Source: Arcobacter arenosus (GTDB lineage Bacteria; Campylobacterota; Campylobacteria; Campylobacterales; Arcobacteraceae). Taken from it: a stretch of 64,000 nt of DNA. Positions 3,201 through 46,199 of the stretch are shown here, piece by piece. The position numbers and the translations under genes were made by a program. Within the stretch, counting starts at the first letter, position 1; each line of letters starts with the position of its first letter. Location of the stretch: NCBI RefSeq assembly GCF_005771535.1, contig NZ_VANU01000003.1:62001-126000 (forward strand), read 5' to 3'. The notes under the pieces are model-generated. The model searched no databases and was not told the origin of the DNA. It was given only the letters and a program-made list of their open reading frames with translations.

Positions 3201-3927
3201 TTTCATAACCTTCAATATTGAAATATGGTGGTCTTTTTAATTCGTATGCCAAATATAAAGCATCACACATAGTCCAAAGTATATCAAGTTTAAACTGTAA
3301 AATTTCAAAAGCTTTATTTTGAAGTTCAACTGTATTAAACTCTTCTAAAGTGATTGAAAGTCCATGTTGAACATCTCTTCTTGCTTCACTTAATCTTTTT
3401 TGAAAATATCTTAAACCTTTTGCTTCAATCCATGGATAATTATCTGGCCATGTATTTAATCTTTGTTGATGAATTTGAGGTGCAAACATCTCAGTTAAAG
3501 ATGACATTGCAGCTTCTTTCCAAGGTCTTTGTTTTGCAAAGTTAATATAAGCATCTACTGCAAATTTAACTGCAGGTAAAACATATTTATGTGAAATTAA
3601 ATCCTCTTTATTTAATCCCACTGCTTCACCTAATTCAAGCCAAGCTTCAATTCCTCCACCAACACTATCATGGTCAGTAATTCTATCAATCCATTTTCTT
3701 CTATCTTCTAGTGGTGGATTATTTGACATAATCGCTGCATCTTTAATTGGTATTGCTGTTTGATAATAAAACCTATTTGCTACCCAACCTTGAATTTCCT
3801 CTTTTGTACACTCGCCTTTATACATTCTAATATGAAAAGGATGGTGAATATGATACATATCACCCATACCTCTTAGTTTTGCTTCAAACTCTTCTTTACT
3901 TAATAATTCACTCATTTTTTTTGTCAT
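3169..3927 (-). CDS. pqqC: Pyrroloquinoline-quinone synthase PqqC
   Basis: 252 residues, the normal length for this cofactorless oxidase, which carries out the final ring closure and eight-electron oxidation to PQQ. The family-typical stretch [12 protein letters not shown] and the helix [13 protein letters not shown] followed by [12 protein letters not shown] are present. It is preceded by an AGAAGAAG-type ribosome binding site. The enzyme needs oxygen, so PQQ synthesis in this organism should require at least microaerobic conditions (family knowledge). An ~80-bp gap separates it from pqqB. Confidence 0.97.
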
Positions 3928-4007
3928 TCTTCTTCTCCTTTTTTATTAATCCCTTTTAAAATGCAAATTTTAAAAGATTAAGCTTTTGGGCTTTAAGAAT
4001 AAAGCCT

Positions 4008-4940
4008 TTATATATCTATTCTCATTCCATCATAAGATACTTCAATCCCATGGGAAATAAGCTCTTTATATTCAGAACTTTCTTCATCTAATATTGGATT
4101 TGTATTATTAATATGAATTAATATTTTTCTAGGTTTCTCTAAGGTATCTAAAACTTTAATCAAACCCTCATCTCCACTTAAAGGGATGTGTCCCATATCA
4201 GTTCCTAATTTTGTAGAAAACTCACCTTTTATCATCTCATCATTTGTCCAAAGTGTACCTTCTATTAGAAGAACGTCTGCATTTCTCATTTCATCAAAAA
4301 CATGATCTTCCATTACACCAAGACCTGGAAGGTAAAATAATCTTTTTCCAGTATTTTTATTTACAACTGTAATTCCAATATTATCACCACGTCTAGGCTT
4401 ATCTCTATATAATGAGTATGGAGGTGCATTTGAAATAAGTGCATGGGCATAAAATTCATAAGAAGGCATTACAGGAATTTCAAATTTTGTAGTTGAATCT
4501 GGCAATATTTCATGCCAAACTGTTCCACCACCATCCCAATGTTTTAACATTTTCATAGTTGGAAATGATGAATTTAATTCTTCATTTACCTCTTTTGTGC
4601 AATAGATTTGGTGAGGACAACCTTCCCTTAACATAAGTAATCCAGTTGTATGATCAATTTGTGCATCATTAAAAATGATTGCTTTAATTTTTGTTTCTCT
4701 TTTTTTTGTTGGATGTAAAAAAGGTGAATTATGAATTTGCTCTAATATATCTGGGCTAGTATTAAGTAAAACCCAGTTTTCACCATCTTCACTAATAGTA
4801 ATTGAACTTTGAGTTCTTCTTTTTATACTTTTTTTACCATCTCTGTAACCTCTACAATTGTCACAGTTACAATTAAATTGTGGTAAACCACCACCTGCTC
4901 CTGAACCTAGAACTTGAATCCTCACAACATATCCTTTCAT
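4008..4940 (-). CDS. pqqB: PQQ biosynthesis protein PqqB (metallo-beta-lactamase fold)
   Basis: 310 residues. The N-terminal region reads VLGSGAGGGLPQ followed by the zinc-site motif CNCDNC, typical of PqqB; the family oxidises the Glu-Tyr intermediate. The ATG at 4940 has a GAGG-type site. A GTG at 4925, six bases after AAAGGA, would give the usual N-terminus (M)RIQVLG, so the true start may be 15 bp downstream. It lies just after the pqqA terminator hairpin, so its expression probably depends on readthrough. Confidence 0.96.
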   Translation of the reverse strand: MKGYVVRIQVLGSGAGGGLPQFNCNCDNCRGYRDGKKSIKRRTQSSITISEDGENWVLLNTSPDILEQIHNSPFLHPTKKRETKIKAIIFNDAQIDHTTGLLMLREGCPHQIYCTKEVNEELNSSFPTMKMLKHWDGGGTVWHEILPDSTTKFEIPVMPSYEFYAHALISNAPPYSLYRDKPRRGDNIGITVVNKNTGKRLFYLPGLGVMEDHVFDEMRNADVLLIEGTLWTNDEMIKGEFSTKLGTDMGHIPLSGDEGLIKVLDTLEKPRKILIHINNTNPILDEESSEYKELISHGIEVSYDGMRIDI

Positions 4941-4985
4941 TTTTCCTCAAAGAAAAAAATTCCCACATTTTTTTCTTTGAAAAAA

Positions 4986-5009
4986 AGACTAGAGCCTAAG
5001 CTCTAGTCT
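4986..5009 (-). terminator. Intrinsic terminator/attenuator between pqqA and pqqB
   Basis: A perfect 10-bp stem (AGACTAGAGC / GCTCTAGTCT) with a 4-nt loop is followed on the minus strand by a run of six or more T. It begins about 12 bases after the pqqA stop and lies before pqqB, so it should release most transcripts after pqqA and let a minority through to pqqBCDE. Confidence 0.85.
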
Positions 5010-5020
5010 AGTTTAAAGAA

Positions 5021-5095
5021 TTACTTTGTACAAATATACATAGTAACTTCAAAACCAAATCTGTTATCTACGAATGTAGGTGTTTCCCATTTCAT
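5021..5095 (-). CDS. pqqA: PQQ precursor peptide PqqA (24 residues)
   Basis: A 24-codon gene read directly from the sequence: it starts MKWETPTF and ends TMYICTK. Glu16 and Tyr20 are in the E-x3-Y arrangement that PqqE crosslinks and that becomes the backbone of PQQ. The N-terminal MKW start is typical of the family. A very strong ribosome binding site (AAGGAGG, about 6 bases before the ATG) fits the need for large amounts of precursor. It lies 31 bp after the alcohol dehydrogenase stop and just before a terminator hairpin. It is short enough to be missed by gene callers. Confidence 0.96.
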   Translation of the reverse strand: MKWETPTFVDNRFGFEVTMYICTK

Positions 5096-5126
5096 TTTAG
5101 TTACCTCCTTTTTTGATTTTCAAATA

Positions 5127-6905
5127 CTATTTTTTAAATAGTTTAAATACGTGAACAGTTCCACCTTGGTTGATGTTCTTAATAAGTTTTGCAACTTCAC
5201 CACCCCATAAAGGAACAGCTCCACCCCAACCTGAAACGATTGCTATGTATTGCTCACCATTTTGCTCCCAAGTAATTGGAGAAGAAACAATTCCTGAACC
5301 AGCATTGTATTTAAATAAAATTTCACCAGTTTCATCATCAAATGCTAAGAATTTACCTTCAGGAGTTCCTGTAAATACAAGTCCACCAGCAGTAGTTAAA
5401 ACTCCACCCCATAGTGGTGCAGGGTTTTTATATTCCCATTTGATTTTTCCAGTTAAAGGCTCAATTGCTTTAAGTGAACCAATGTGATCTTCGAAAATTG
5501 GTTTAATTGTAAATCCAGCACCTAAGTAAGCAGCACCTTTTTTATACGAAATTGGTTGATTCCAAATATCCATTCCCCACTCATTTGAAGGAACATAGAA
5601 TAATTCAGTTTTCTTAGAATAAGCCATTGGCATCCAGTTTTTACCACCTAAGAATGAAGGAACAGAGAATACTGCCTTACCTTTTGAAGCATCACCAGGA
5701 TTTCCAGGTCTTCCATCAGGAGTTAACATTGGTCTACCGTTTTTATCAATTCCAGTTGCCCAAGTAATATTTGAAACAAATGGATTTGCAGTAATAAACT
5801 TACCATTAGTTCTGTCTAATACATAGAAGAAACCATTTCTATCTGCAGTTGCAGCATATTTTTTACCATCTTTATTAAATGAAACTAACTCATTAACACC
5901 ATCGAAATCCCATCCATCATGTGGAGTTGTTTGATAATGCCAAACAATTTTTCCTGTATCAGGATTAATTGCTAATCTTGAAGAAGAGTATAAGTTATCC
6001 CCTGGTCTATTGTGTGAATTCCATGGTGCAGGGTTTCCTGTTCCGAAGAATAATAAATCAGTCTCAGAATCATATGTTCCACCAAGCCAAGTTGCAGCTC
6101 CACCAGTTTCCCATAAATCTCCAGGCCATGTTTTACCAGCTTCACCACCAGTAATTCCATTTTCTTTTCCATTTAAGTAACCCATGTGACCTTCAACAGT
6201 TGGTCTAGTCCAAATAAGTTTACCAGTTTTAGCATCATACGCTTCAACTTTTCCAACAATACCAAATTCACCACCAGCTACACCAGTGATAATCATATCT
6301 TTAACAACTAATGGAGCAGCAGTAATTGAGTAACCATCTTTATATTCTGCTACTTTTTTCTTCCATACTGTTTTTCCAGTTTTTCTATTTAATGCAACTA
6401 ATTTAGCATCTAATGTTCCAAAAATTACTAAATCACCATAAATTGCAGCACCTCTATTGATAACATCACAACAAGGTAAAATTCCACTTGGAAGTCTTGC
6501 ATCATATTGCCATAACTCTTCACCTGTAGCTAAATCAATTGCATACATTCTAGAATAAGAAGCAGTTACATACATAACACCATCTTTTACTAGTGGTTGA
6601 GATTCTTGTCCTCTTTGTTTTTCTCCACCAAATGAGAAATTCCATACAGAAACTAAATTTTTAACAGTCTCTTTATTCACCTGAGTCAGAGGTGAAAATC
6701 TTTGACCATTTTGTCCATGTCCATATGTTAAAACATCCCCAGTTGTTTTATCATCATTTAAAATTTCATCATATGATACAGGTGCATATGATGGTTTTGT
6801 AACCATAGATTTGTCATTCATCGTAGTGTTACTAGTTGCACATCCACTAATTAATGCAGAAAGTGTAACAGCTACTGCACTAGTTAGTAAAAAACTCTTT
6901 TTCAT
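5127..6905 (-). CDS. PQQ-dependent alcohol dehydrogenase, lipoprotein, lanthanide-type metal site
   Basis: 592 residues. A lipoprotein signal peptide ends at C22 (LISGC), so the enzyme is anchored and periplasmic. An eight-bladed quinoprotein propeller follows, with the vicinal disulfide C145-C146 (LPCCDV). By alignment to methanol dehydrogenases the metal ligands are E213 (GGEFG), N291 (GTGNPAPWN) and the catalytic D333 in HDGWDFDG. The additional D335 two residues later is the hallmark of lanthanide-dependent XoxF/ExaF/PedH enzymes; calcium enzymes have Ala, Ser or Thr there. There is no cytochrome domain, so electrons probably go to the PedF-type cytochrome encoded at 18531. The substrate (methanol, ethanol or a longer alcohol) cannot be read from sequence. 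Its promoter carries the shared GCTA repeat. Confidence 0.93.
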
Positions 6906-10051: not shown

Positions 10052-11197
10052 ATGAAACAACTATTTAGTTTATTTTTAATGTTAAGCTTCGTAAATGCCT
10101 TTACATTAGAAGTAAATATTTTATACCTAGAACAAAAGATAAAAAAACCTCCTGTGCTTTCAAATATAATTGAAGATCCTGAAGATTTAGGTCTAAAAGG
10201 GGCACAAAAAGCGATAATTGATTCAAATAAAAGTGCAAGATTCTTAAATCAAAAATATAATCTAATTGAAAAAATTTCATACGATAAAGAACAATTAAAA
10301 AAAGATTTTGAAGAGTTTATAAATGCAGGTAACTCTTATGTGGTATTAAATGTTGAAGATGATTTTTTAAAAGTGTTACTAAACAACCCACTTTCAAAAA
10401 AAGTTTTAATGGTAAATGCAAGTAGTCCAACTACATCTTTGCGGCAAAACTATTGTTTACCAAATTTACTTCATACAGCTCCTTCAAATGCTATGCTTTA
10501 TGATGGCTTAGTACAATTTTTAGTAAAAAGAGATTTTAAAGATATCTTTTTAATTAGTGGAGAAAATGAAAAAGATAAAGAGATATTAAAAGATATAAAA
10601 AGAGCAGTTAAAAAGTTTAATGCAAAAATTGTAAAAGAAAAGATTTGGGATAATAATAGTGATATCAGAAGAAAAGCAAATGCAGAATTTCCAGTATTTA
10701 CACAAGCAAATGATTATGATTTAATTGTTTTAGCTGACCATTATGGAGATTTTGGTGAGTTTATGTATTTTAATACCTGGCTTCCAAGACCAATTGCAGG
10801 AACACAAGGATTAACTCCAACTGCTTGGCATAAAGTTATTGAAGCATGGGGAGCAGCTCAAATGCAAAGTAGATTTGAAAAGTTTGCAAAAAGATGGATG
10901 CAATCAAAGGATTATACAAACTGGACAGCTGTTAGATCAATCATTGGTGCCATTACAAAAACAAATAGTGCTGATTTAAAAACAAATTTAGATTTTATTC
11001 ACTCAGATAAGTTTGATTTAGCAGCTTATATGGGAAGAAAACTATCATTTAGAGAATATAATGGACAATTAAGAATGCCTATCTCATTAGTTCAGCCAAG
11101 AGCTTTAATCACAACTTCACCACAAATTGGGTTTTTACATCCTAAAACAGATTTAGATACTTTGGGTATTGCACCCTTTGAGATGAAGTGTAAATAA
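10052..11197 (+). CDS. Periplasmic binding protein of PQQ alcohol dehydrogenase system
   Basis: 381 residues with a signal peptide (ending VNA). The fold is that of ABC substrate-binding proteins of the branched-chain amino acid type (about 20-260: ILYLEQK start, NDYDLIVLADHYGDFGEFM), extended by a C-terminal part with WTAVRSIIGAIT and LSFREYNGQLRMPISLVQ. This combination matches the substrate-binding-protein family defined by its association with PQQ alcohol dehydrogenases. The family has no dedicated importer here; it probably works with the ABC-2 pair encoded divergently. Its stop overlaps the start of the DUF302 gene by one base. Confidence 0.88.
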   Translation: MKQLFSLFLMLSFVNAFTLEVNILYLEQKIKKPPVLSNIIEDPEDLGLKGAQKAIIDSNKSARFLNQKYNLIEKISYDKEQLKKDFEEFINAGNSYVVLNVEDDFLKVLLNNPLSKKVLMVNASSPTTSLRQNYCLPNLLHTAPSNAMLYDGLVQFLVKRDFKDIFLISGENEKDKEILKDIKRAVKKFNAKIVKEKIWDNNSDIRRKANAEFPVFTQANDYDLIVLADHYGDFGEFMYFNTWLPRPIAGTQGLTPTAWHKVIEAWGAAQMQSRFEKFAKRWMQSKDYTNWTAVRSIIGAITKTNSADLKTNLDFIHSDKFDLAAYMGRKLSFREYNGQLRMPISLVQPRALITTSPQIGFLHPKTDLDTLGIAPFEMKCK

Positions 11198-11652: not shown

Positions 11653-11738
11653 AAAACTTTCACTTTAATTAGAAAATTACTTTAAATTACTATTTAAATA
11701 TATAATAATATAATAGTTCCAGTCATAGGGAGAAAATT

Positions 11739-13865
11739 ATGAAAAATAATTTAATAATACTATTAATAATTATTAGCTTCTCGATATTTTTATTTCTAAC
11801 TTTAAATATAGAAAAAAATAATGTAACAAATATAGAAAAAAAAGTTACTAAACCCAAGATTGAATTAAAACTTGCCCATAATCTACCAGAGAATAGTGCC
11901 TTACATGAAGCTTCTGTTTTATATGCAAAAAAAATTGCTGAACTTACAAACAATAAAGTAAAAATCAATATCTTTCCTAAACAAGAATTAGGAAATGATT
12001 ACCAAATGATAGAACTTGCAAGTCAAGGTAAAATAGATATTATAGTAACCCCAACTGCAAAAATGAGTGTATCAGTTCCCTCAATGCAATATGCAGACTT
12101 GCCATTTTTATTTCCAACAAGAGAGGATGCCTATGAACTTTTAGATGGGGAAGTGGGTAAAATGATTCTAAAAGATTTAGACAAAATTGACCTTTTAGGA
12201 GTTGCCTTTTGGGAAAATGGTTTTAAACATTTTACTGCAAACTCAAAATTAATTAGCCCAAAAGATTTTGAGGGTAAAAAAATTAGAGTTATGAAAAGTA
12301 GAATTATAATGGAACAATTTAAAGCTTTGGGGGCACAAGCAATTCCTATTGATTTTCATTCTACAAAAAAAGCCTTAGAAGATAAGGTTGTAGATGGTCA
12401 AGAGAACCCTTTAGTTGCAATTGTAAACATGCAATTTCATAAGGTTCAGTCACATTTAACAATTAGCGAACATGCTTATTTACCATACGTATTTACAATG
12501 AGTAAAAAAAGTTTGCGAAAAATGCCCATAGAGATTCAAAATATTTTAACTACTAGTTTAGATGAAATTACAAAATGGGAAAGAGAGGAAACCCAAAGAA
12601 GGGAAAAAGAGTTTCTTGAGACAATAAAAAATGAAGGTGTAAAAATACACTATTTAACAAAAGAAGAGAAAGAAGTTTTTAGAAAAAAAACTAAATATAT
12701 TATAAAAATGTATGAAAGAGTAATTGGTTCACATATAATTTCAAAAACAGAAGAGATATTGAATAAAAAATATGGTGAAACAGAAGATATATATTTTGGT
12801 TTAGATGTAAATCTTTCAGTTGGAAATAAAGACTCAGGATTATCTTTAAAAAGAGGAGTAGAGTTAGCAATTGATGAGATTAATTCAAATGGTGGATTAT
12901 TGGGTAAAAGGGTCAATCTTTTAGCTAAAGATAATGAAGCAATTACTACTAAGGCTTTGAAAAATTTTAAAGAGTTTTCAGAAAATGAAAATGTGAAAGT
13001 AGTAATAGGTGGCAAAAAAAGTTCAATAATTTCAAAAGAATTAGAAGATATTCAAAAAAGTAAAAAACCTTATTTTTCACCTTGGGCATCTGCTGATAAA
13101 ATAGTTAATAATGGTTATGAAGAAAACTATATTTTTAGAGTTTCTACAAATAATAAATTTATTATAAATAAACTTTTAAATGAATCTTTAAAAGAGGATA
13201 AAAACCCAATAATAGTTGTTGAAAATTCTATTTGGGGAAGAGGTGCCTTGGAACTTATAAAACAAGACAAGAAAGAGTTTAACTTTCTTATTATAAACCA
13301 AGGTCAAACTAATTTTAGTAATTTGATATCTCAAATAAAACAAAATAATATAAAATCAATGTTAATGGTTTTAAATACTTTAGAAGCATCAAATATTTTA
13401 AAAACCCTAAATGAAAATAAAATAAAGATGTCAATATCTTCACATTGGGGTATTTTAGGTGGAGATTTTTATGAAAAAAATAAAGAGTATCTTACAAATA
13501 TTGATTTGAAATTTATTCAATCTTTTAGTTTTTACAAAAATAAATCAAAAAAAGCAAAAGAGTTTGGATTTAGATATATAAAAAAATATGCAGAAAACTC
13601 AATTTTTGATATATTATCTCCATCCTCTGTTGCACAAGCATATGATTCTACTATGCTAATTGCACAAGCAATAAAAGATGCTAATTCCTTTGATGGAGAA
13701 AAAATAAAAGATGCCTTAGAAAATTTAAAAGAGTATAATGGCTTAATAAAAAAATATATAAAACCATTTAGTAAGACTGACCATGAAGCTTTAGAAAAAG
13801 ATGACTTTTTCTTTGCAAAATATAATGAAGAAGGGAAAGTGATTCCAATAGGTAAATTAAAATGA
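11739..13865 (+). CDS. Fused TRAP (DctP) and ABC type-1 solute-binding protein
   Basis: 708 residues. After an N-terminal membrane/signal segment (about 5-23), residues ~45-335 are a TRAP-type DctP binding domain (LAHNLPENSALHEAS, GKKIRVMKSRI, DGQENPL). Residues ~345-700 are a Peripla_BP_6 domain of the branched-chain amino acid binding type (GVELAIDEINSNGGLLGKRVNL). No TRAP QM subunits or ABC permeases are nearby. It overlaps the following histidine kinase by 4 bp. I infer a periplasmic two-ligand sensor partner of that kinase and not a transporter component. Its promoter region (11653-11738) lacks the GCTA repeat. Confidence 0.88.
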   Translation: MKNNLIILLIIISFSIFLFLTLNIEKNNVTNIEKKVTKPKIELKLAHNLPENSALHEASVLYAKKIAELTNNKVKINIFPKQELGNDYQMIELASQGKIDIIVTPTAKMSVSVPSMQYADLPFLFPTREDAYELLDGEVGKMILKDLDKIDLLGVAFWENGFKHFTANSKLISPKDFEGKKIRVMKSRIIMEQFKALGAQAIPIDFHSTKKALEDKVVDGQENPLVAIVNMQFHKVQSHLTISEHAYLPYVFTMSKKSLRKMPIEIQNILTTSLDEITKWEREETQRREKEFLETIKNEGVKIHYLTKEEKEVFRKKTKYIIKMYERVIGSHIISKTEEILNKKYGETEDIYFGLDVNLSVGNKDSGLSLKRGVELAIDEINSNGGLLGKRVNLLAKDNEAITTKALKNFKEFSENENVKVVIGGKKSSIISKELEDIQKSKKPYFSPWASADKIVNNGYEENYIFRVSTNNKFIINKLLNESLKEDKNPIIVVENSIWGRGALELIKQDKKEFNFLIINQGQTNFSNLISQIKQNNIKSMLMVLNTLEASNILKTLNENKIKMSISSHWGILGGDFYEKNKEYLTNIDLKFIQSFSFYKNKSKKAKEFGFRYIKKYAENSIFDILSPSSVAQAYDSTMLIAQAIKDANSFDGEKIKDALENLKEYNGLIKKYIKPFSKTDHEALEKDDFFFAKYNEEGKVIPIGKLK

Positions 13866-15586
13866 TTAAACTTAAACCGATAAAAAATAGTATAAAAAAT
13901 AAAATCATAATTCAATTTACCCTTATAATATCTGTTTTTTTATTGCTAATCTCTTTTTCTATAGGATATTTATTTATCAAAAACACAGAATCCCATGCAC
14001 AAGATTTATTAAAAAATAGAGCCTTATTAATTGAGGAAAAAATACAAGAAAGACTTTATTATCTTATAGAACAAACAAAACTTCTTGCAAAAAATTCACT
14101 GATGATTAATTCTTTAATCGATGATGATAATAAAGAAGAATACCTTTTACCATTAGCTTTAAATTTTATGGAAGATAAAAATGTAAAATATCTAAATATT
14201 ATAGATTTTGATGGAGAGATAATATTTAAAACTACAGAAAATATTCCAAAATATAATAACTCAATATACATTAGAAATGCACTAGCCTTAGGACAAACAA
14301 CATTTTATTTAGAAAAAAATAAAAATGAATTTATTGTAGTTTCACCTGTAAAATATTATGAAACAACGCAAGGAGCTTTAATAGCTACTTTTAATCTTGA
14401 TAAAATTTTAAGTAAATATATAATTAACTCAAATGATGAATATATTGAGATACTAGATACGCAAAATGACAAACTTTTATATATAAATAATCATGATAAA
14501 AATCAAAAATATTACTCGTATAGTCTAAAAAATCAAAATTTATCACTTTTTGATGAATTAAATATTACTTTAAATATCGGGAAATTAGAATCAACATACT
14601 TATTTCCAATACAAGATGCTTTAAAAAAAGTGATTATTATGAGCTTTATCCTAATTTTAATAGGAACTTTACTCTCTTATTTATTAGCTGAATCAATCAC
14701 TAAACCTATTATAGAACTATATAAAAAGATAGAAAATAATGAATTTAATGAAAAATATCAACCTTTAGGTACAAATGATGAGTTAGAGGTTTTATCTTTA
14801 GCTTTCCATGAAAAAGTAAAACAATTAAATCAATTTAAAAATGAAGAATTAGAGAACCAAAAACTTTTACTTGAACAGTCAAAAATGGCAGCATTGGGTG
14901 AAATGATTGGAAATATTGCCCATCAATGGAGGCAACCTTTATCTGTTATATCAACTGCTTCAAGTGGCTTGAAAATGAAACAAGAATATGGAATTTTAGA
15001 AGAAGATGAGATGTTTTCTGTTCTTGATTCTATTAACGAAAACACTCAATACCTATCAAAAACAATTGATGACTTTAGAAACTTTATTATTGGGAAAAGG
15101 GAAAAGAGACTATTTAATTTAAGTGAACAAATAGATAGTTTTTTATCTTTAATGATAGGCAGTATAAAAACACATGATATACATCTAATACGTAATGAAC
15201 AAACAAATATTGAAATCAATGGATATCCAAATGAATTAACACAATGTTTAATGAATATAGTTAATAATTCAAAGGATGCTTTTGAAGAAAAAGGGATAAA
15301 GGAAAAGTATATTTTTATAAAAACATATACCAAAAACTCTTCAATATTCATAGAGATTAAAGACAATGCAGAAGGTATTAAGGAGGATATAATCCCAAAA
15401 ATATTTGAGCCCTATTTTACAACAAAACATAAATCTAGGGGTACTGGATTAGGACTTAGTATGACATATAGATTAATTACAGAAGGGATGAAAGGGAATA
15501 TAAAAGTAAAAAATACATCTTTTAAATATAAAGACAACAATTATAAAGGGGCAGAATTTACTATTACTCTACCCATAATAAGCTAG
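13862..15586 (+). CDS. Membrane sensor histidine kinase (Cache-like, HAMP, HisKA)
   Basis: 574 residues. Two membrane segments (about 17-40 and 254-276) enclose a ~210-residue periplasmic sensor of Cache type. A HAMP-like linker, a phosphoacceptor box NIAHQWRQPLSV typical of Campylobacterota, and a HATPase domain (NIVNNSKDAFEE, GTGLGLSM) follow. It is coupled to the fused binding protein upstream, which probably delivers ligand to its sensor domain. No response regulator is adjacent, so the partner is elsewhere; the regulator at 1139 already has its own kinase. It ends in a 4-bp overlap with the convergent DUF411 gene. Confidence 0.92.
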   Translation: MIKLKPIKNSIKNKIIIQFTLIISVFLLLISFSIGYLFIKNTESHAQDLLKNRALLIEEKIQERLYYLIEQTKLLAKNSLMINSLIDDDNKEEYLLPLALNFMEDKNVKYLNIIDFDGEIIFKTTENIPKYNNSIYIRNALALGQTTFYLEKNKNEFIVVSPVKYYETTQGALIATFNLDKILSKYIINSNDEYIEILDTQNDKLLYINNHDKNQKYYSYSLKNQNLSLFDELNITLNIGKLESTYLFPIQDALKKVIIMSFILILIGTLLSYLLAESITKPIIELYKKIENNEFNEKYQPLGTNDELEVLSLAFHEKVKQLNQFKNEELENQKLLLEQSKMAALGEMIGNIAHQWRQPLSVISTASSGLKMKQEYGILEEDEMFSVLDSINENTQYLSKTIDDFRNFIIGKREKRLFNLSEQIDSFLSLMIGSIKTHDIHLIRNEQTNIEINGYPNELTQCLMNIVNNSKDAFEEKGIKEKYIFIKTYTKNSSIFIEIKDNAEGIKEDIIPKIFEPYFTTKHKSRGTGLGLSMTYRLITEGMKGNIKVKNTSFKYKDNNYKGAEFTITLPIIS

Positions 15587-37696: not shown

Positions 37697-37710
37697 TCCA
37701 AGTCTTTACT
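37681..37710. terminator. Bidirectional hairpin at mqnE end
   Basis: A 13-bp stem with one G-U pair (AGTAAAGGCTTGG / CCAAGTCTTTACT) and a TAAT loop contains the mqnE stop and touches the stop of the convergent receiver gene. The following U-tract is weak. Confidence 0.55.
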
Positions 37711-38986
37711 TAAAAATACCACCTTTTTTTACTCTTAATTCACCATTTTCTTTTTGTAAATTTGAAACTAAATCCTTAAGCTCGTTTATTCTTTTTTGAT
37801 TTTCAATCTCTTTTTCTATTAGATTTGAAACCTCATTATTTTTTGAATCATACATTGCTTGCATAGTTTTTAAATCATTTTCTAACTTTAAGTTTTTAGT
37901 TTTTAAGGCATTTAAAGATTTATACATATCATCAAATTGTTTTGACTTATCTTGTTTTGCCATTATATCCATTTTATTGTGTTGTAAATTACTACTTTCA
38001 TATGCTTCTAACTGCTTTAATAATGATTTTCTTTTATCTTCCGAAACTCTTGCTTTTTCTTCTAGTACACTAAAAGTTTTTTGAGTTTCAATTAATCTTT
38101 TATCTAGATTTTCTTTATCTGTTTTTAATTTTCCAATTGTTTTTTTATACTCAGTTAACTGCTCAATAAATCTTTTAAAGTTTTTTCTTTTCTCTTGTTC
38201 CTCTTCAGTTACTAAAAATCTAACAGCCATATATTCAATAATATTTTTTCTATTTATATCAAAAATCGGAAAAATTTTTGTATTTACAAAATATGTAGTT
38301 CCATCTTTTGTTAAGTTTTTATGGGTACCATTCCAAATTTTACCCTCTTTTATAGTAGTCCACATATCTTCAAAAAAAGATTTATTTACATCAGGGTGAC
38401 GAACAATATTATGAGAAGCACCAATTAACTCCTCTCTTGTATATCCTGAAACCTCGCAGAAACCATCATTTACAAAGGTGATTTTCCCTTTCAAATCAGT
38501 TTTTGAAACTAATGCCTCTTGGTTTATAATATCTAAGTAGTTGTCTAATTCTGACTTTTGAGCTTTAAATTTTTTCTCTAAATTTAGATTATTGCAGATT
38601 TTGTCTAATTTTTTAGTAATCTCTTCTAGGTCAATAGGTTTTAAAATATATTCAGTAACTTGTAAAGAGATAGCTTTTATAAGGTTTTCACTCTCATTTC
38701 TTGCTGTAATAAAAGCGCAAGGGATTTCATTATCAAACTCTCTGATTTTTTCAAGCATCTCAAGGCCATCCATTTTTGGCATATTAATATCACTTAAAAT
38801 TAAATCAAATTTTTTTCCACTAGTAAATGCTTCTTGAAATTTCAAAAAACCATCAAGTCCATTTTCACATAATTCAACTTCCTCAAATCTACGTCTAAGA
38901 AATTTCCCTAATTTTTGTCTAGCTAAATCTTCATCTTCTACAAATAAAACTTTTATATTTTCTTTTTCTAATTTAAATTCTTCCAT
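37706..38986 (-). CDS. Receiver-PAS protein with long coiled coil
   Basis: 426 residues. A receiver domain (phosphoacceptor D66 in SDINMPKMDG), a PAS domain (about 145-250; VSGYTREELIG) and ~160 residues of coiled coil to the end. There is no kinase, DNA-binding or cyclase domain, so output is probably through protein contacts. It overlaps the upstream OmpR-type regulator gene by 14 bp. Confidence 0.88.
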   Translation of the reverse strand: MEEFKLEKENIKVLFVEDEDLARQKLGKFLRRRFEEVELCENGLDGFLKFQEAFTSGKKFDLILSDINMPKMDGLEMLEKIREFDNEIPCAFITARNESENLIKAISLQVTEYILKPIDLEEITKKLDKICNNLNLEKKFKAQKSELDNYLDIINQEALVSKTDLKGKITFVNDGFCEVSGYTREELIGASHNIVRHPDVNKSFFEDMWTTIKEGKIWNGTHKNLTKDGTTYFVNTKIFPIFDINRKNIIEYMAVRFLVTEEEQEKRKNFKRFIEQLTEYKKTIGKLKTDKENLDKRLIETQKTFSVLEEKARVSEDKRKSLLKQLEAYESSNLQHNKMDIMAKQDKSKQFDDMYKSLNALKTKNLKLENDLKTMQAMYDSKNNEVSNLIEKEIENQKRINELKDLVSNLQKENGELRVKKGGIFK

Positions 38987-39713
38987 CTTTCATCCTTAGC
39001 TTGTATCCAAAGCCATACATATTTTCAATATTTAAATCTGGCATTTTAACCCTTAATCTTGAAATAAGATTTTTCAAATTTGCTATTGCAGATTCAAAAT
39101 CTTTTATCTCATCCCAAATAAAGTTAATAATATCATCTGTATTAACTACTCTATTAATATTTTTACACAAAATATCAATTAGTTGTAACTCTTTTTTTGT
39201 TAATTTAACTGTACTGTTATTTTTATATAAAACTTTTTCTTCAATATCCCATTCAAAACCATTTTCTAATAGTATAGAACTTTTCTCCCCTATTAAAAAA
39301 TTCTTTTTGTAGTTTTTATTCAAAACTTTTTCAATACTTTGAAGTAAAGGCTCCACATCAATAGGTTTTAGAATATAATCATTTATATCAAGTTTTACTA
39401 CATCTAATAACTGTTTAACATCAAGTTGAGCAGTTAAAAAGATAAAAGGCAAAAGTTCATCAATATGTCTTACATTTTTTAGTAAATCAACGCCATCCAT
39501 TATTGGCATATTAATATCACTAATCACCAAGTCAAAATTTTTACCTCTTAAATAGAAGTCTCTAATTATCATTAAAGCATCATCACCATTTTTTGCTACA
39601 ATAATATTATTATAAACTCTATTTAGAATCTTCAACAACTTAGCTTGAGTTTCATATTCATCTTCCACAAGAAGTATTCTTGCATTTTTTTTGTAACTTT
39701 CTATATTTTCCAT
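38973..39713 (-). CDS. OmpR-family response regulator
   Basis: 246 residues. A receiver with D66 (SDINMPIMDGVDLL) and conserved Lys in DYILKPIDVEP, then a winged helix (about 155-240; VKLTKKELQLIDILCKN, ENMYGFGYKL). Co-transcribed with the receiver-PAS gene. Target unknown; the sequence around shows no GCTA repeat. Confidence 0.92.
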   Translation of the reverse strand: MENIESYKKNARILLVEDEYETQAKLLKILNRVYNNIIVAKNGDDALMIIRDFYLRGKNFDLVISDINMPIMDGVDLLKNVRHIDELLPFIFLTAQLDVKQLLDVVKLDINDYILKPIDVEPLLQSIEKVLNKNYKKNFLIGEKSSILLENGFEWDIEEKVLYKNNSTVKLTKKELQLIDILCKNINRVVNTDDIINFIWDEIKDFESAIANLKNLISRLRVKMPDLNIENMYGFGYKLRMKDGRI

Positions 39714-39756
39714 AACCTAATTCTATTAATAAATCGTACTATAATGGTATCATAAA

Positions 39757-40440
39757 TCAGTAAATTTTATAATCATTAATTATATATCCTTGATTTGATA
39801 TATTTTTTATTATTTCATAGTATGATTTTTCTCTAATTTTATTAACAACATTTCTCATACTATAAATTGAACATTTTTTTCCTTCCCATACACTTTCTAT
39901 TATTTTTTCATAGGGAACAATTCTATTTTTATTTTCAAGTAAAACTTTTATAAAGTTAGTTTCAAGACTTGTTAAATTAACTTCTTTGTATTTAAAATAA
40001 AATCTATTTTTTCTCATACAAAAAGAATAATCATGATTAAAATATATCTTGCTATTTTTTTTCATTGTTATAGCAATGTAAATATCAATATATTCTAATT
40101 GTTCATTTTTCAAGATAATATTGTTTAAAGGGACATTATCAATATATTCTAATATTGAAAACTCTAAATCAGAAGAGATATAAATAATTGGTATATTAAA
40201 ATTCTTCAGTTTATCATTAAATAATGAACTATCAAGATATTGAATATCAAAATAATCAATATCAATAATAATCATATCATATAATAAAAAATCAGAATTA
40301 TAAATAGAATTATTAATATGAAAACTTTTTAATAATGGAGTAAGTTTTTCATTCATTCTATCTATTACCTTATTATCTTTTGTTAATAAAAGTACCCTCT
40401 TTGTATTTAAAAAATTAGCATTATAAATTTTTTTAGTCAT
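39757..40440 (-). CDS. Degenerate receiver with winged-helix DNA-binding domain
   Basis: 227 residues. The C-terminal winged helix is intact (VNLTSLETNFIKVLLENKNRIVPYEKI). The N-terminal receiver is degenerate: the acidic pair is missing (LLLTKDNK) and the Lys motif is not clear, although an Asp stays in IIIDIDY. It may act without phosphorylation. Very AT-rich and rich in Ile/Asn/Tyr. Confidence 0.8.
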   Translation of the reverse strand: MTKKIYNANFLNTKRVLLLTKDNKVIDRMNEKLTPLLKSFHINNSIYNSDFLLYDMIIIDIDYFDIQYLDSSLFNDKLKNFNIPIIYISSDLEFSILEYIDNVPLNNIILKNEQLEYIDIYIAITMKKNSKIYFNHDYSFCMRKNRFYFKYKEVNLTSLETNFIKVLLENKNRIVPYEKIIESVWEGKKCSIYSMRNVVNKIREKSYYEIIKNISNQGYIINDYKIY

Positions 40441-40613
40441 AAAAACTCCTAATTATTTTAGATTATTATAACAATAAAAGATATTTTAATAATATCTTTA
40501 GATATCTTAAAATAATACTTTTTTAATACCTTTATAAATTAAATCAATACAAAAATACAATGATACTATTAGAATACCCTTTTATTCTATAATTGCATTA
40601 TAAGGAGTATAAA

Positions 40614-42410
40614 ATGATTGAAAATAATTATTTAAAAAGTTTGAATATATTATATGTAGAAGATGAACCTACTACTGCAAAAAAATTTTCATCTATTTTA
40701 AAAAAAATATTCAATGAGGTTTTTTATGCTCCAAATGGAAAAGAAGCCCTTGATATTTTTTATAACAATAATATTAATATAGTTATAAGTGATATCAATA
40801 TGCCAATTTTAAATGGTTTAGAATTAGCAAAAGAGATTAGAAAAACAGATATAAATCTCCCTATAGTATTAATTTCTGCTAGAAATGAAAGTGATACACT
40901 TTTAGAAGCAATTGATTTAAATATTGATAGTTATATTTTAAAACCAATCTCTTTAGATGCTTTTATAGAAAAAATCAATTCTATAAGTAAAAAAATTGAA
41001 GCAAAAGAGAATCAAAAAATATTAGACCAATATAAACAAGTTATTGATGATGCTTCAATTGTAGTAAAATTTGATTTAGATGGGAAAATAACATATACAA
41101 ATAATCTATACTCAAAAGTAACTGGTTTTAATTTTGATGAAGTAAAAGATAAATATTTTAATTTTAATCAGCATATTGAAGAAAAATCAAGTGTATATTT
41201 AGAACTTTGGGAAAAATTAAGAGATAAAGAGCAATGGAAAGGTAGATTAAGAAACTACACAAAAGATAAAAATGAATATATTATTGACTCAATTATTATT
41301 CCAATAATAGATATTAACAACAATACTAAAGAGTATATTTCAATTTCAAATGATGTTACTGACCAAATTTCATTAAATAATCTTTTAAATATTGAAATAA
41401 AAAACTATAAAGATAATCTTACAAGTAAAAGCCATTTCTTAACAGAATATCAAAGGGGATTAAATGAAATTACCTCTATTGCAAAAACAGATAAAGACTT
41501 TAATATCATTACTATAAATACAAAATTTTTAAAAATTTTAGAATTACAAAGAAAAGAGTTAATAAACAGAAACTTTTTTAATTTTATTAATTTAGAAGAG
41601 AATAATTGTGTTGAATTTTTAGAAAATCTAAAGAACAAAAAAGCTTCTGAACAAATAATCATCTTTGATACAAAAAAAGAGAAAAAACATATTGATATTA
41701 ATATTTCACCAATTCTAGATTCTAATAAAAATATTATTGAATATTTAATTGCTGCAAATGATTTAACTTCAAGTATAAATTTACAACATGAGATTGAACT
41801 TACACAAAAAGATGTAATTTTAACCTTAGGAGAAATAGGTGAACAAAGAAGCAATGAAACAGGGAATCATGTAAAAAGAGTTTCAAAATACTCATATCTT
41901 TTAGCAAAAAAACTAGGATTTACTGAAGAGGAAGCAAACTTAATACAATTGGCAGCACCTATGCATGATATAGGGAAAATAGGTATTCCTGATTCGATTT
42001 TACATAAAAAAGGGAAACTAACTAAAGAGGAGTTTGCGATTATGAAAACCCATACAACAATTGGGTTTGATATGTTAAAAAACTCTAAAAGAAAGATTAT
42101 GAAAGCAGCTGCAATTATTTCCCATGAACACCATGAAAAATGGGATGGGAGTGGATACCCTAGAGGTTTAGCAGGGGAAGAGATTCATATATATGGAAGA
42201 ATTTTATCAGTTGTTGATACCTTTGATGCTTTAGGGAGTGAAAGATGTTACAAAAAAGCTTGGGAATTAGATGATATTATAGAGTATTTAAAAGAAAAAG
42301 CAGGAAAAGATTTTGACCCAAAAGTTGTAGATATCTTATTAAATAATATTGATGAATTTTTAGAAATAAAAGAAGAACTTACTTTTGAAGTTCAAGGAGA
42401 AGTGGCATGA
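40614..42410 (+). CDS. Receiver-PAS-PAS HD-GYP cyclic-di-GMP phosphodiesterase
   Basis: 598 residues from the ATG at 40614, six bases after AAGGAG; a TTG at 40593 in the same frame would place the ribosome site inside the gene. A receiver (D60 in SDINMPILNG), two PAS-like domains (~135-260 and ~285-385) and an HD-GYP domain with HDIGKIGIPD and HHEKWDGSGYPRGL. The intact HD and GYP motifs predict active c-di-GMP hydrolysis. First gene of a signalling operon with FIST and kinase genes. Confidence 0.93.
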   Translation: MIENNYLKSLNILYVEDEPTTAKKFSSILKKIFNEVFYAPNGKEALDIFYNNNINIVISDINMPILNGLELAKEIRKTDINLPIVLISARNESDTLLEAIDLNIDSYILKPISLDAFIEKINSISKKIEAKENQKILDQYKQVIDDASIVVKFDLDGKITYTNNLYSKVTGFNFDEVKDKYFNFNQHIEEKSSVYLELWEKLRDKEQWKGRLRNYTKDKNEYIIDSIIIPIIDINNNTKEYISISNDVTDQISLNNLLNIEIKNYKDNLTSKSHFLTEYQRGLNEITSIAKTDKDFNIITINTKFLKILELQRKELINRNFFNFINLEENNCVEFLENLKNKKASEQIIIFDTKKEKKHIDINISPILDSNKNIIEYLIAANDLTSSINLQHEIELTQKDVILTLGEIGEQRSNETGNHVKRVSKYSYLLAKKLGFTEEEANLIQLAAPMHDIGKIGIPDSILHKKGKLTKEEFAIMKTHTTIGFDMLKNSKRKIMKAAAIISHEHHEKWDGSGYPRGLAGEEIHIYGRILSVVDTFDALGSERCYKKAWELDDIIEYLKEKAGKDFDPKVVDILLNNIDEFLEIKEELTFEVQGEVA

Positions 42411-43531
42411 AAAATATAAAACTATATAAAAGTCTAGAAGAGTTTATATCTTCTAATCAAAGTAGTAAAAAAGAGTATTATCTTCTTGTAGCTGAAAATT
42501 GTGAATTTGATTATAAAAAACTAAAAGAAACAAATATTTCATTTTATGGGGCAATTGTTACTCAAGTAATTTTTAATGACTCAAATTATGATAATGGTTT
42601 AATTTCCTGTGAACTTGAAGATGAAAAAATAAATTTAATTGAAGACCTAGAAAATCCACAATTAAAGGAAAAGGATTATAAAGATGCTAATTCATTAATG
42701 GTTTTATTAGATGGTCTAAGTTCAAATATAAGTACGTTTCTTGATTCACTATTTAATGTTTTACCTTTAAATGTTGAAATTTTAGGTGGAGGAGCGGGAA
42801 AACTTACACTAAAACAAGAGCCAGTAATATTTAGCAACAAAGGTATATATGAAAATGCTGCTTTAACTATCTCAAAAAAATCAAAACTGTTTATTGGTGT
42901 AGAAAATGGTTGGGAGTTTTTAGAAGGCCCTTTTATGGTAACCTCGTCAAATAAAAATATTTTAAAATCTCTTAATTTTATGGATGCCTTTGAGGTTTAT
43001 AAAAGTGTTGTAGAAGAAGATTCAGGACTTAAATTTAATAATGCCTTTGAAACCTATAAAAATGTTGTTGAAAAAGAATCAGGGAAACAAATTACAGAAG
43101 ATAATTTTTTCGATATAGCAAAATCATATCCCCTTGGAATTGTAAAATTTAATAAAGAGATAATTGTCCGTGATCCAATAGCAAAAGATGAAAAAGGGAA
43201 TATGATATTAGTTGGTGATTTAGAACAAAATTCAACTATTAATATTTTAAAAGGTAATAAAAAATCTTTAATTGCCTCATCAAATAATGCCATTAAAAAA
43301 GCACTAGAATCAAATACTGAAAAATTAGAAATTAAAAATGTAGTATTATTTGATTGTATTTCAAGATGTATTTTTTTAGAAGATGATTTCAAAAAAGAAC
43401 TTAATGAAATTAAAAAACAAGTTAATGATGAAACATTATTTGGGGCTTTAACTTTAGGGGAAATTGCAAATAATGGAAATGAATATATTAACTTTTATAA
43501 TAAAACTTGCGTAGTAGGTGTATTATGTTAG
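42407..43531 (+). CDS. FIST-domain sensory protein
   Basis: 374 residues covering FIST-N and FIST-C: ILGGGAGKLTL in the middle, a C-terminal ALTLGEIANNGNEYINFYNKTCVVGVL (split here by its conserved GEI and NKT elements). It has no output domain, unlike the FIST-kinase at the left end of the window. A 19-residue stretch is tandemly duplicated near residues 194-230. It overlaps the HD-GYP gene upstream and the kinase gene downstream, so it probably supplies ligand sensing to the neighbouring kinases. Confidence 0.88.
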   Translation: MKNIKLYKSLEEFISSNQSSKKEYYLLVAENCEFDYKKLKETNISFYGAIVTQVIFNDSNYDNGLISCELEDEKINLIEDLENPQLKEKDYKDANSLMVLLDGLSSNISTFLDSLFNVLPLNVEILGGGAGKLTLKQEPVIFSNKGIYENAALTISKKSKLFIGVENGWEFLEGPFMVTSSNKNILKSLNFMDAFEVYKSVVEEDSGLKFNNAFETYKNVVEKESGKQITEDNFFDIAKSYPLGIVKFNKEIIVRDPIAKDEKGNMILVGDLEQNSTINILKGNKKSLIASSNNAIKKALESNTEKLEIKNVVLFDCISRCIFLEDDFKKELNEIKKQVNDETLFGALTLGEIANNGNEYINFYNKTCVVGVLC

Positions 43532-45084
43532 TACAAAACCTCGCCATAACATACAAATGTTATAGTTCCATTGGAAACTCTTTAGACTTAAAAGAGATGA
43601 TGGATGAAACGTTAAAAACCTTTGTAAGTGAGACTTATGCTATTTTTGCTCAATACTGTATAAAAAACAAAGATGGCTTTTTAGAAAAACTCTCTTCATT
43701 TGGTAAGATTGACGATTTTAATCCAAATGATTATTCTCACTATGAAGATGAAATTAAATTAATAGTTGAAGAGAATAGAAAAATACTTATAATAAAACTT
43801 CATTTTGGTTCTTTATTTCTAGTTACAAAAAATATGGAAGTTCAATGTTCATTTTTTATCTCAATGTTTGAAAGTTTTTTACAAAAATTAAATATGAGTG
43901 TACAAGCTTGTTTAAATGTTGAAAAACTAAAAGAAACAAATAAACTTTTAAAAGAGCAAAAAAAAGCATTAAGGGAAGCAAATAAAGCAAAAGATGATTT
44001 CATGGCAAATATGAGTCATGAATTAAAAACACCCCTAAACTCAATTAATGTAATCTCATCGGTAATGAAAAAAAATAAAGATGGTTCATTAAATGAAAAA
44101 CAGATTAAAAATCTAGAAATTATAAATAGTTGTGGGAATTACCTTCTGACATTAATAAATGATGTCCTTGATATTTCTAAACTTGAAGCAGGAAGAATTA
44201 ATACAATTTTTACAAAAGTAATATTGAAACAAACCTTAACAGAAATTTATGAAATGTTTTTACCTCAGGCAAAAGAGAAAGGTGTAAAACTATTTTTTAA
44301 TTTTGATGATTCAATCAATCATATTTATAGTGATGACCATAAAATTAAACAAATAGTAAAAAACCTTTTAAGTAATGCCTTAAAATTTGTCGGAGATGGT
44401 TCAATTTATTTAGATGTAAAAGATGAAGATAAATATGTGACTATAAGTGTAAAAGACGAAGGTATTGGAATACCTAAAGAAAAACTTGAAAATATTTTTG
44501 ACAGATTTAAACAAGCAGATAATACTACAACCAGAAAATATGGTGGTACTGGACTAGGTTTAGCAATATGTAAAGAGTTACTTGACCTTTTAAAAGGTAC
44601 TATTTATGTAAAAAGTGAAGTTGATGTTGGGACAACTTTTTATGTAACTATTCCTAAAAATTTAGATAACTTAGAACATATGGATTTGTTAGATTTAAAT
44701 AATGACCATGATTTAAATAACTCAACTCTTCCTTTAAATATTGATAAGTCAACTGAAAATGAGATTAAAGAGAAAGTTATAGTTTATAATACAAATCCCT
44801 CAGAGTTTTTCAAAATGATAATTGACCTACAAAAAGATTTTGAGATAATTCAAGTTTTCAAAAAATATGAAATTCAAAAAGTAGCAAATAATGAGATTAA
44901 AAAAATTATTATTGATATAGATACAGTTGATAAAGATGAATTAAATGGTATTATTTTAGAATATAGTGAGAAACTGATTATTTTAACAGAAGATGAAAAT
45001 CTCAAATTTTCAAATGATATTGAAATAGATGTTGCTTTAAAAAATGAAATAAATTCTATAAATAAGAAAATAAAAGGAATATAA
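43525..45084 (+). CDS. Soluble histidine kinase with C-terminal pseudo-receiver
   Basis: 519 residues from the ATG at 43525, which overlaps the FIST stop by 7 bp; the frame also opens at a TTG at 43507. The N-terminal ~130 residues are an unrecognised input domain, then a coiled coil, H-box MSHELKTPLNS, and HATPase (NLLSNALKFV, GGTGLGLAI). The C-terminal ~100 residues look like a receiver that kept an Asp (IIIDIDT) but lost the acidic pair. No membrane segment. Confidence 0.88.
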   Translation: MLVQNLAITYKCYSSIGNSLDLKEMMDETLKTFVSETYAIFAQYCIKNKDGFLEKLSSFGKIDDFNPNDYSHYEDEIKLIVEENRKILIIKLHFGSLFLVTKNMEVQCSFFISMFESFLQKLNMSVQACLNVEKLKETNKLLKEQKKALREANKAKDDFMANMSHELKTPLNSINVISSVMKKNKDGSLNEKQIKNLEIINSCGNYLLTLINDVLDISKLEAGRINTIFTKVILKQTLTEIYEMFLPQAKEKGVKLFFNFDDSINHIYSDDHKIKQIVKNLLSNALKFVGDGSIYLDVKDEDKYVTISVKDEGIGIPKEKLENIFDRFKQADNTTTRKYGGTGLGLAICKELLDLLKGTIYVKSEVDVGTTFYVTIPKNLDNLEHMDLLDLNNDHDLNNSTLPLNIDKSTENEIKEKVIVYNTNPSEFFKMIIDLQKDFEIIQVFKKYEIQKVANNEIKKIIIDIDTVDKDELNGIILEYSEKLIILTEDENLKFSNDIEIDVALKNEINSINKKIKGI

Positions 45085-46199
45085 TGGAAAATAGATTCTC
45101 TATACTAATAATTGATGATGTTGAAGAAAACATATATTCATTAAAACTTCTTATTGAAGAGTTTGATGTTGATATTTATAGTGCCTTAAGTGCTAGTGAA
45201 GGGATTTCTGTTTTAACAAAACACCCCGTAGATTTAATCCTTTGTGATATTCAAATGCCAGATATAGATGGTTTTCAATTTGCTGAATATATAAAAGGTA
45301 TAGAGAATCTAAAAAATATCCCTATTATTTTTGTTACGGGGATATATGATAAAGACTCATACCAACAAAGAGGTTATGACCTTGGGGCTATTGAATATAT
45401 TACAAAACCTATAGATGATGTTTTATTAACTTCAAAACTAAAAGTCTACATTGACCTATTTAATAAAAATAAAGAAACAAAAGAATCTCTAGAATTAGCA
45501 AATAAACTTGTTGTTCATAATACAAAAATGGCAAGTATAGGGGAGATGATTGGAGTTATTTCCCACCAATTAAAACAACCATTAAATGTCCTTTCTTTAT
45601 ATTGTGAAGATATTAAATATTCATATGACTATGGTGATTTAGATAAAGAAACAATTGATGATTTTTCTGTAAATACAAAAAAGCAAATTCATCATATGAA
45701 AGATACAATTGATGGGTTTTTAGGTTTTTTCAATCCAAATAAACCAAAAGAAAACTTCTCTGTTATAGAGTCTTTGAAAGATTCATTGGCACTAATGCAT
45801 TCACATTTAGATAAAAATAAAGTAATACTTCATGAAAAATTTGAAGATGATTTTTTATTAAATGGTATTACTATGGAACTTTCTCAAGTGGTGATGAATT
45901 TTATTACAAACTCTATCCAAGCTTTCAATGAAAGAGAAATTGAACAAAGAAACATAGAGATTAGATGTTATAGTGAAAATGGTAAAAACTATATCACTTT
46001 TACAGATGATGCAGGTGGAATTAAAGAGGATAATTTAGAGAAAATCTTTGACCCATATTTCACAACAAAAAGTGAAGGTAGTGGGATTGGATTATATATG
46101 GTAAAACTTGTAATTACAAAAACATTTGGTGGAAAATTAAGTCTTGAAAATTTTGAGAAAGGTGTAAGATTTATATTAGAATTTGACAAAGTAGATTAG
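45084..46199 (+). CDS. Receiver-histidine kinase hybrid
   Basis: 371 residues: an N-terminal receiver (IIDDVEENIY acidic pair, Asp in LCDIQMPDIDG, Lys in YITKPIDD), then an H-box SHQLKQPLNVL and a HATPase (NFITNSIQAF, GSGIGLYM). Receiver-before-kinase order suggests that it is controlled by phosphotransfer from the kinase encoded upstream, with which it shares one base. End of the HD-GYP/FIST/kinase operon. Confidence 0.92.
   Translation: MENRFSILIIDDVEENIYSLKLLIEEFDVDIYSALSASEGISVLTKHPVDLILCDIQMPDIDGFQFAEYIKGIENLKNIPIIFVTGIYDKDSYQQRGYDLGAIEYITKPIDDVLLTSKLKVYIDLFNKNKETKESLELANKLVVHNTKMASIGEMIGVISHQLKQPLNVLSLYCEDIKYSYDYGDLDKETIDDFSVNTKKQIHHMKDTIDGFLGFFNPNKPKENFSVIESLKDSLALMHSHLDKNKVILHEKFEDDFLLNGITMELSQVVMNFITNSIQAFNEREIEQRNIEIRCYSENGKNYITFTDDAGGIKEDNLEKIFDPYFTTKSEGSGIGLYMVKLVITKTFGGKLSLENFEKGVRFILEFDKVD

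Follow-up and report, generated by a model that had tools for sequence, protein, structure and literature searches.

A DctP-PBP1 double binding protein paired with a dCache sensor: a probable signalling receptor in Arcobacter arenosus and other bacteria

Introduction

A binding protein that signals to a receptor is, as a rule, one taken over from a transporter, with a single fold and a single ligand. What, then, is the role of a single chain that joins two unrelated binding folds beside a sensor kinase? The question is raised by a gene pair of Arcobacter arenosus found in the window analysed here, a stretch of 64,000 nucleotides (contig NZ_VANU01000003.1, positions 62,001 to 126,000 of the forward strand). 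The first gene (11739..13865, + strand) encodes a fusion of DctP, a binding domain of the tripartite ATP-independent periplasmic (TRAP) type, with a type-1 periplasmic binding domain of the ATP-binding cassette (ABC) type (PBP1), and the second (13862..15586, +) encodes a histidine kinase. With a probability of roughly 0.78, the pair is a transmembrane receptor driven by its binding protein, in the manner of LuxP-LuxQ and DctP-DctS, and not a transporter. This reading is carried by the domains, the predicted folds, a hydrophobic N-terminal helix, the strict co-occurrence of binding protein and sensor, their gene order, the swapping of output domains and the absence of linked permeases. An initial annotation of the locus, made from the letters alone, is partly supported in its interpretation.

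The family to which the pair belongs appears to be a widespread kind of signalling receptor not described before, and searches of openly licensed papers listed none that treats a DctP-PBP1 fusion by title or abstract. Its interest lies in two unrelated binding folds that are joined, tethered to the membrane and, in many genomes, cut off from transport, and in one sensor domain that is inherited with this double binding protein, its output enzyme being exchanged.

The double binding protein

The fusion gene is one open frame of 708 codons plus a stop with an ATG start, preceded by a possible ribosome-binding site (AGGGAG, 11727..11732, +), and its end overlaps the beginning of the kinase gene (574 codons plus a stop) by 4 bp (ATGA, from 13862). 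The initial annotation had described both the overlap and a 708-residue chain joining DctP to a type-1 periplasmic binding domain, and the open frames, Pfam and the fold comparisons bear it out. DctP (PF03480) is matched at residues 46-326 (E 9.2e-77, 258.6 bits against a cut-off of 23.4), the same half also matching TIGR00787 (230.6 bits against 175.05), and Peripla_BP_6 (PF13458) is matched at residues 362-696 (E 4.1e-31, 109.3 bits against 31.7). An AlphaFold2 model built from 36 sequences, with a mean predicted local distance difference test (pLDDT) of 92.2 and a predicted template modelling score (pTM) of 0.88, places a hydrophobic helix at residues 2-22 (11742..11804, +) and a disordered segment at 25-36, followed by the DctP domain at residues 40-345 (11856..12773, +) and the PBP1 domain at 348-708 (12780..13862, +), with no low-confidence or disordered linker at the junction. 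In structural searches, the DctP half matches 4p47 (Z 40.0, root-mean-square deviation (rmsd) 1.5, 307 residues aligned) and further TRAP binding proteins, and the PBP1 half matches 4q6w (Z 42.2, rmsd 2.4, 353 aligned), a type-1 binding protein of Bordetella whose title names 3-hydroxybenzoic acid.

The N-terminal helix is a probable membrane anchor that would remain uncleaved. Of 42 fusions, 41 carry such a hydrophobic segment at the N-terminus, and only L029, which as called has no long N-terminus, does not; the PBP1-only relatives described below mostly carry, by eye, an ordinary cleavable-looking signal peptide. Both binding domains are marked by strongly conserved residues, which probably line the binding pockets. 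Within DctP, R183, E222-N223-P224-L225 and W158-E159-N160-G161 are identical in 36/36 fusions; within PBP1, R467 is kept in 36/36 and W449, W499, R501, H569 and W570 in 35/36. R183 and N223 align with the R and N of 4ovs and 7bbr, and we take them to be the ligand-coordinating Arg and Asn that correspond to R147 and N187 of SiaP.

The receptor partner

The 574-residue chain matches HisKA and HATPase_c in Pfam, and its dCache_1 score, 36.1 bits, falls below the cut-off of 45; dCache_1 is matched at E 0.001 in 32 of 34 partner receptors. The sensor half of the window kinase has a dCache-like fold of two PAS-like modules on a long helix (model pLDDT 88.5), the nearest structures being KinD (4jgq; Z 17.9, rmsd 2.8, 191 aligned) and DctB (3by9; Z 17.6), and LuxQ (3c38) also matches (Z 14.3, rmsd 3.1, 181 aligned). 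An alignment of 35 rows defines the input half as residues 1-330 (13862..14851, +), composed of a transmembrane helix, dCache, a second transmembrane helix and a HAMP region. The output half, residues 331-574 (14852..15583, +), is a HisKA and HATPase_c kinase with N-box and G-boxes present and His354 as the likely phospho-acceptor (HQWRQP; codon 14921..14923, +), as located by a scripted motif search.

Across the family, the downstream gene resembles the window kinase over roughly its first 330 residues, regardless of the output that comes after. The conserved partner of the fusion is the dCache/HAMP input half, and is not basically a kinase. The Cache/HAMP kinase of the initial annotation is therefore an apt description within the window but not of the family, where GGDEF-EAL or hybrid kinase outputs occur elsewhere behind a conserved input half.

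Distribution and linkage to the sensor

A scan covering the contigs of 84,980 species genomes gave 54 confirmed loci. Both halves lie on one chain in 34 of them (L010-L043; contig ends cut L033 and L041), DctP alone adjoins a receptor in one (L044), and the remaining 19 (L045-L063) are DctP matches without PBP1, which were excluded from the counts. The fusion recurs in Campylobacterota, in Gammaproteobacteria (beta lineages included) and in Magnetococcales, its hosts including Amphritea, Oceanospirillum, Thiomicrorhabdus, and Azoarcus and relatives. Its spread is patchy, with 2 of the 104 genomes of the window's family and 7 of the 397 of its phylum, Campylobacterota, carrying it, and 72,556 plasmid records gave no match to the fusion at E 1e-60. 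In the DctP-domain tree, 45 members of the fusion family stand on one side and 22 other proteins on the other (support 89). An artefact of sequencing, which the initial annotation had named as a possible refutation, or of assembly is ruled out because independent genomes of distant lineages carry the fusion at 37-52% identity.

The linkage between binding protein and sensor is strict. A profile of the sensor alone, searched against the 397 Campylobacterota genomes, returned the same 7 genomes that hold the fusion. Starting from the sensor also gave matches in 13 of the 369 genomes drawn from the class Gammaproteobacteria, in 26 of 48 from the Magnetococcales class and in 14 of 199 from a beta family; from the latter two groups, 15 of 49 sensor matches were fetched for reading of the locus. 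The binding protein lies directly upstream in all 27 sensor-first loci fetched (2 + 10 + 15), and in 65/65 of all loci with a readable sensor, a total that mixes fusion-found and sensor-found loci, so that the sensor-found set is the fair test. Three rows were left out before counting, namely L118, which is the same place as L044, and L041 and L033, whose sensors are unreadable at contig ends. In the 65 loci, the binding protein is a DctP-PBP1 fusion in 54 (including one shortened copy, L154), PBP1 alone in 10 and DctP alone in one. That binding proteins drive sensor kinases, as first proposed, was the right class of explanation for such an arrangement. The outgroups of the PBP1 tree, two proteins with branches of length 10, provide no usable root for the PBP1-only group.

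A comparison of pairwise distances was made over 42 pairs, leaving out L124, whose sensor is cut by a contig end, and L042, whose fusion is masked by a longer antisense frame in the calling of open reading frames, its match reading through in alignment. Both binding halves appear to follow the sensor, with distance-matrix correlations of 0.83 for PBP1 and 0.79 for DctP (0.70 between the halves) and partial correlations of 0.63 for PBP1-sensor, 0.51 for DctP-sensor and 0.14 for DctP-PBP1, values to be read with caution on account of shared descent. The mean pairwise identity over these pairs is 0.55 for DctP, 0.39 for PBP1 and 0.35 for the sensor.

Output domains and their exchange

The outputs of the family comprise GGDEF-EAL, the enzyme of cyclic diguanosine monophosphate (c-di-GMP) turnover, hybrid kinases, with a REC-HD-GYP gene often next in line, and the simple kinase of the window. 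The 34 receptors divide into 16 GGDEF-EAL and 16 HisKA/HATPase types, one truncated receptor (L029) and one that reaches a contig end (L032); REC was matched in 14 members and Hpt in 13. In a tree of 47 sensor halves, the kinase-type receptors form a grade; 22 receptors make up a clade (99/89) whose readable members, that of the window excepted, are GGDEF-EAL. Two output changes account for this tree, in which L029 is unscored and which is midpoint-rooted only, the long branches of L123, L125, L126, L122 and L115 meeting at the root. In the PBP1 tree, the window protein groups with L115 (97/90) and then with L064 (100/99), both of which have GGDEF-EAL outputs (L115 by Pfam, L064 by motif). Searched against its own genome, the kinase module of the window gives 74 matches counting itself, and its best paralogue is 59% identical. 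These placements, the outputs of L115 and L064 and the paralogues together suggest, most simply, that the window receptor is an old c-di-GMP receptor whose GGDEF-EAL enzyme was replaced by a local, Arcobacter-type kinase module. The window gene would thus itself be a natural case of output swapping, in which a kinase took the place of a c-di-GMP enzyme behind a conserved input.

Among 21 GGDEF-EAL receptors, the GGDEF motif is intact in 18 and both EAL motifs, in strict form, in 16. The GGDEF motif was not found in L019, L022 and L037, and their EAL motifs are intact, for which reason their output may be that of a phosphodiesterase only. In 16 chosen loci, of which 15 are of the non-GGDEF-EAL type and one (L123) is of the GGDEF-EAL type, a scan of the gene that follows the receptor gave a REC-HD-GYP protein in 7, a REC-kinase in 6, and a hybrid kinase, an HDOD protein and a phosphonate-type binding protein in one each. 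Receiver proteins of two kinds are accordingly the third gene in 13 of the 16. Because GGDEF-EAL outputs stand on one branch and REC-HD-GYP third genes on the other, c-di-GMP turnover is a likely end point of both, as judged from domains and gene order.

Proposed mechanism

In this model, the N-terminal helix would hold the first product in the inner membrane, leaving its directly joined DctP and PBP1 domains exposed to the periplasm. If one or both of these domains closed on ligand, the dCache input half of the second protein would sense the change and pass the signal across the membrane and through HAMP to the output proper to each lineage. In the window this output is the simple kinase (His354) that took the place of GGDEF-EAL, and the kinase would probably phosphorylate a response regulator encoded elsewhere. 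A wider proposal, which is tentative, views the family as a dual input head, a membrane-tethered TRAP DctP plus ABC-type PBP1 that is detachable and serves one conserved dCache receptor. Inputs (PBP1, DctP-PBP1 or DctP) and outputs (GGDEF-EAL, hybrid kinase with REC-HD-GYP, or simple kinase) would be swapped independently, and the head would sense the coincidence or ratio of two metabolites, mostly ending in c-di-GMP control.

Alternative explanations

The binding domains may divide their labour in more than one way. A stronger form of the receptor explanation has each pocket bind a different ligand, with the receptor reporting their combination as an AND, an OR or a ratio; this is possible, at somewhat under even odds. 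The family-wide conserved residues of both halves are consistent with it, as are the confidence of the model over both domains and their direct junction. The proposal of the initial annotation, that two unrelated folds integrate two ligands, draws further strength from the halves being kept together in 54/65 loci, but the combination is not obligatory, with PBP1 alone sufficing in 10 loci and DctP alone in one, and with most of PBP1 lost from the shortened copy in Magnetococcia (L154, 562 residues).

Those same PBP1-only systems, which have related sensors, show that PBP1 alone can serve a receptor, and so lend themselves to an adaptor arrangement that we regard as about equally probable, in which one domain binds ligand and the other only docks on dCache (DctP sensing and PBP1 docking, or the reverse). 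The better conservation of DctP, given above, reads as if one half were freer to change, but PBP1 also has its near-invariant residues. The natural PBP1-only and DctP-only versions are ready controls for which domain docks, which senses and whether signals combine.

It is unlikely, though less so than transport, that a small ligand binds straight to the sensor, which the binding protein would only tune. The nearest folds of the sensor, KinD and DctB, have been solved in complex with pyruvate, and with malonate and succinate, respectively, and R138, Y166, T168 and Q170 are invariant in 35/35 aligned sensors; yet a binding protein, superfluous for direct sensing, accompanies every sensor that was read.

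The transport question was approached through the permeases. As the initial annotation had stated, no transport subunits lie nearby: nothing in the immediate flanks of the pair reads as a DctQ/DctM or LivH/M gene, and the fusion is tied instead to the sensor. No recurrent permease or transporter occurs among the 25 most frequent families of the flanking proteins, for which 94 proteins were scanned (93 of 250 neighbours and one PBP1-only binding protein). The genome of the window gave 9 matches to DctM (DctQ was not searched), the sole one on the contig of the pair lying about 200 kb away at C3:276061, and 9 to BPD_transp_2, the LivH/LivM permease family, all of which, among the matches listed, are on other contigs. 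In the 33 fusion genomes, one of which (G483) carries the DctP-only locus, BPD_transp_2 was undetected in 13, five of these being Campylobacterota at least 99% complete, and DctM was undetected in just 3; a control search for BPD_transp_2 was positive in 12 of 14 genomes. Because no LivH/LivM-type permease was detected there, transport by the PBP1 half is unlikely in the 13 genomes. Missing permeases argue strongly against a transport role of the PBP1 half but only weakly against one of the DctP half, since DctM is missing so seldom. An ordinary TRAP or ABC uptake protein is made unlikely by the sensor linkage and the missing permeases. That the fusion delivers to unlinked TRAP or ABC permeases, with the kinase as a bystander or a regulator of the transporter, is very improbable, for although the window's own genome has candidate permeases of both kinds, the strict linkage is to the sensor, the permeases are missing from the genomes counted above, and a membrane-anchored double binder would be unusual for shuttling.

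Several points nevertheless weigh against the receptor reading. DctM is present in 30/33 genomes, so that the DctP half could deliver to a distant TRAP permease in most of them, and the distance correlation is confounded by shared descent. The kinase has no adjoining response regulator: as had been noted at the outset, no gene in the immediate flanks reads as one. Contact between fusion and sensor is a step that we infer, as are ligand control, the direction of the signal and the response regulator. Finally, the PBP1 domain of the window departs from the family at conserved positions, having N472 where 35/36 rows have D and Q521 where 30/36 have R, so that this copy may either have altered sensing or be in decay.

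Comparison with known systems

In LuxP-LuxQ of Vibrio, the binding protein drives the sensor. As in the window family, a type-1 periplasmic binding protein there adjoins a sensor of two PAS modules (dCache-like), LuxQ being a hybrid kinase, whereas the window-family binding protein is membrane-anchored, bears an extra TRAP-type DctP domain and serves outputs that vary. The DctP of Rhodobacter sphaeroides reportedly acts in the DctS/DctR sensor-kinase pathway, and offers a precedent for a TRAP binding protein in such a pathway; it is part of the DctPQM transporter, unlike the DctP domain discussed here, which is fused to PBP1 and has no linked permease. The closest analogues of the pair in its working are LuxP-LuxQ and the link reported between DctP and DctS; in architecture it resembles neither.

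A binding protein is likewise paired with a sensor kinase in BctC-BctE of Bordetella pertussis, where the solute-binding protein is described as activating the kinase. BctC is of the TctC family and belongs to a working citrate transporter, unlike the present protein. The structure 5ere, an extracellular ligand binding receptor of Desulfohalobium retbaense, matches the sensor fold through residues 352-593 (Z 15.8, rmsd 3.3, 181 aligned); it is one chain, unlike the two-gene pair, and its first half is probably a PBP1 fold, to judge from its title and length. Tandem binding domains feed an output in the cyclase CdgH and the kinase BvgS (PMC5431781), both domains being of one fold and built into the receptor, whereas two unrelated folds are here carried on a separate chain. 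Of the binding-protein clan, only the SBP_bac_3 family is said to have been studied in c-di-GMP networks, by one review (PMC8846402).

Genomic setting and divergent members

The pair is flanked by genes associated with pyrroloquinoline quinone (PQQ), a DUF411 gene and ABC-type genes. Its placement inside a PQQ locus is thus correct for the window but is not common to relatives, and the guess at a ligand from this context was dropped because flanks vary from locus to locus; at the G036 locus, for instance, the neighbours look ectoine-type by eye. The gene two places ahead of the fusion, 10052-11197, encodes the ABC-type binding protein of the PQQ system (TIGR03863, 415.6 bits, cut-off 413.6), a second type-1 binding protein close to the pair. 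The closest receiver-like proteins in the window, identified by reading open frames and not by domain scan, begin near 37.7 kb and form a cluster at 37706-46199, more than 20 kb from the pair, where 40593-42410 reads by eye as REC-PAS-HD-GYP.

Divergent members occur in several lineages. One Campylobacterota genome (G160) holds two fusion-receptor pairs, L115 and L116, and the L115 receptor (G160:C17, 2734-5799, -) is a PAS-GGDEF-EAL protein with a C-terminal zinc-binding CZB domain. In Hydrogenovibrio, the L029 receptor (12041-14315) stops at 342 residues and the next open frame, in another frame, has GGDEF and DDFGT motifs, which would fit a broken gene or an assembly frameshift. The shortened fusion of Magnetococcia mentioned above lies at 3924-5612 (L154, G856). 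Divergent second copies of fusion and receptor are found in Magnetococcales genomes (L113, L114 and L155); in the Pfam scan, the receptors of L113 and L114 have only PAS after the sensor, and a REC-kinase gene then follows.

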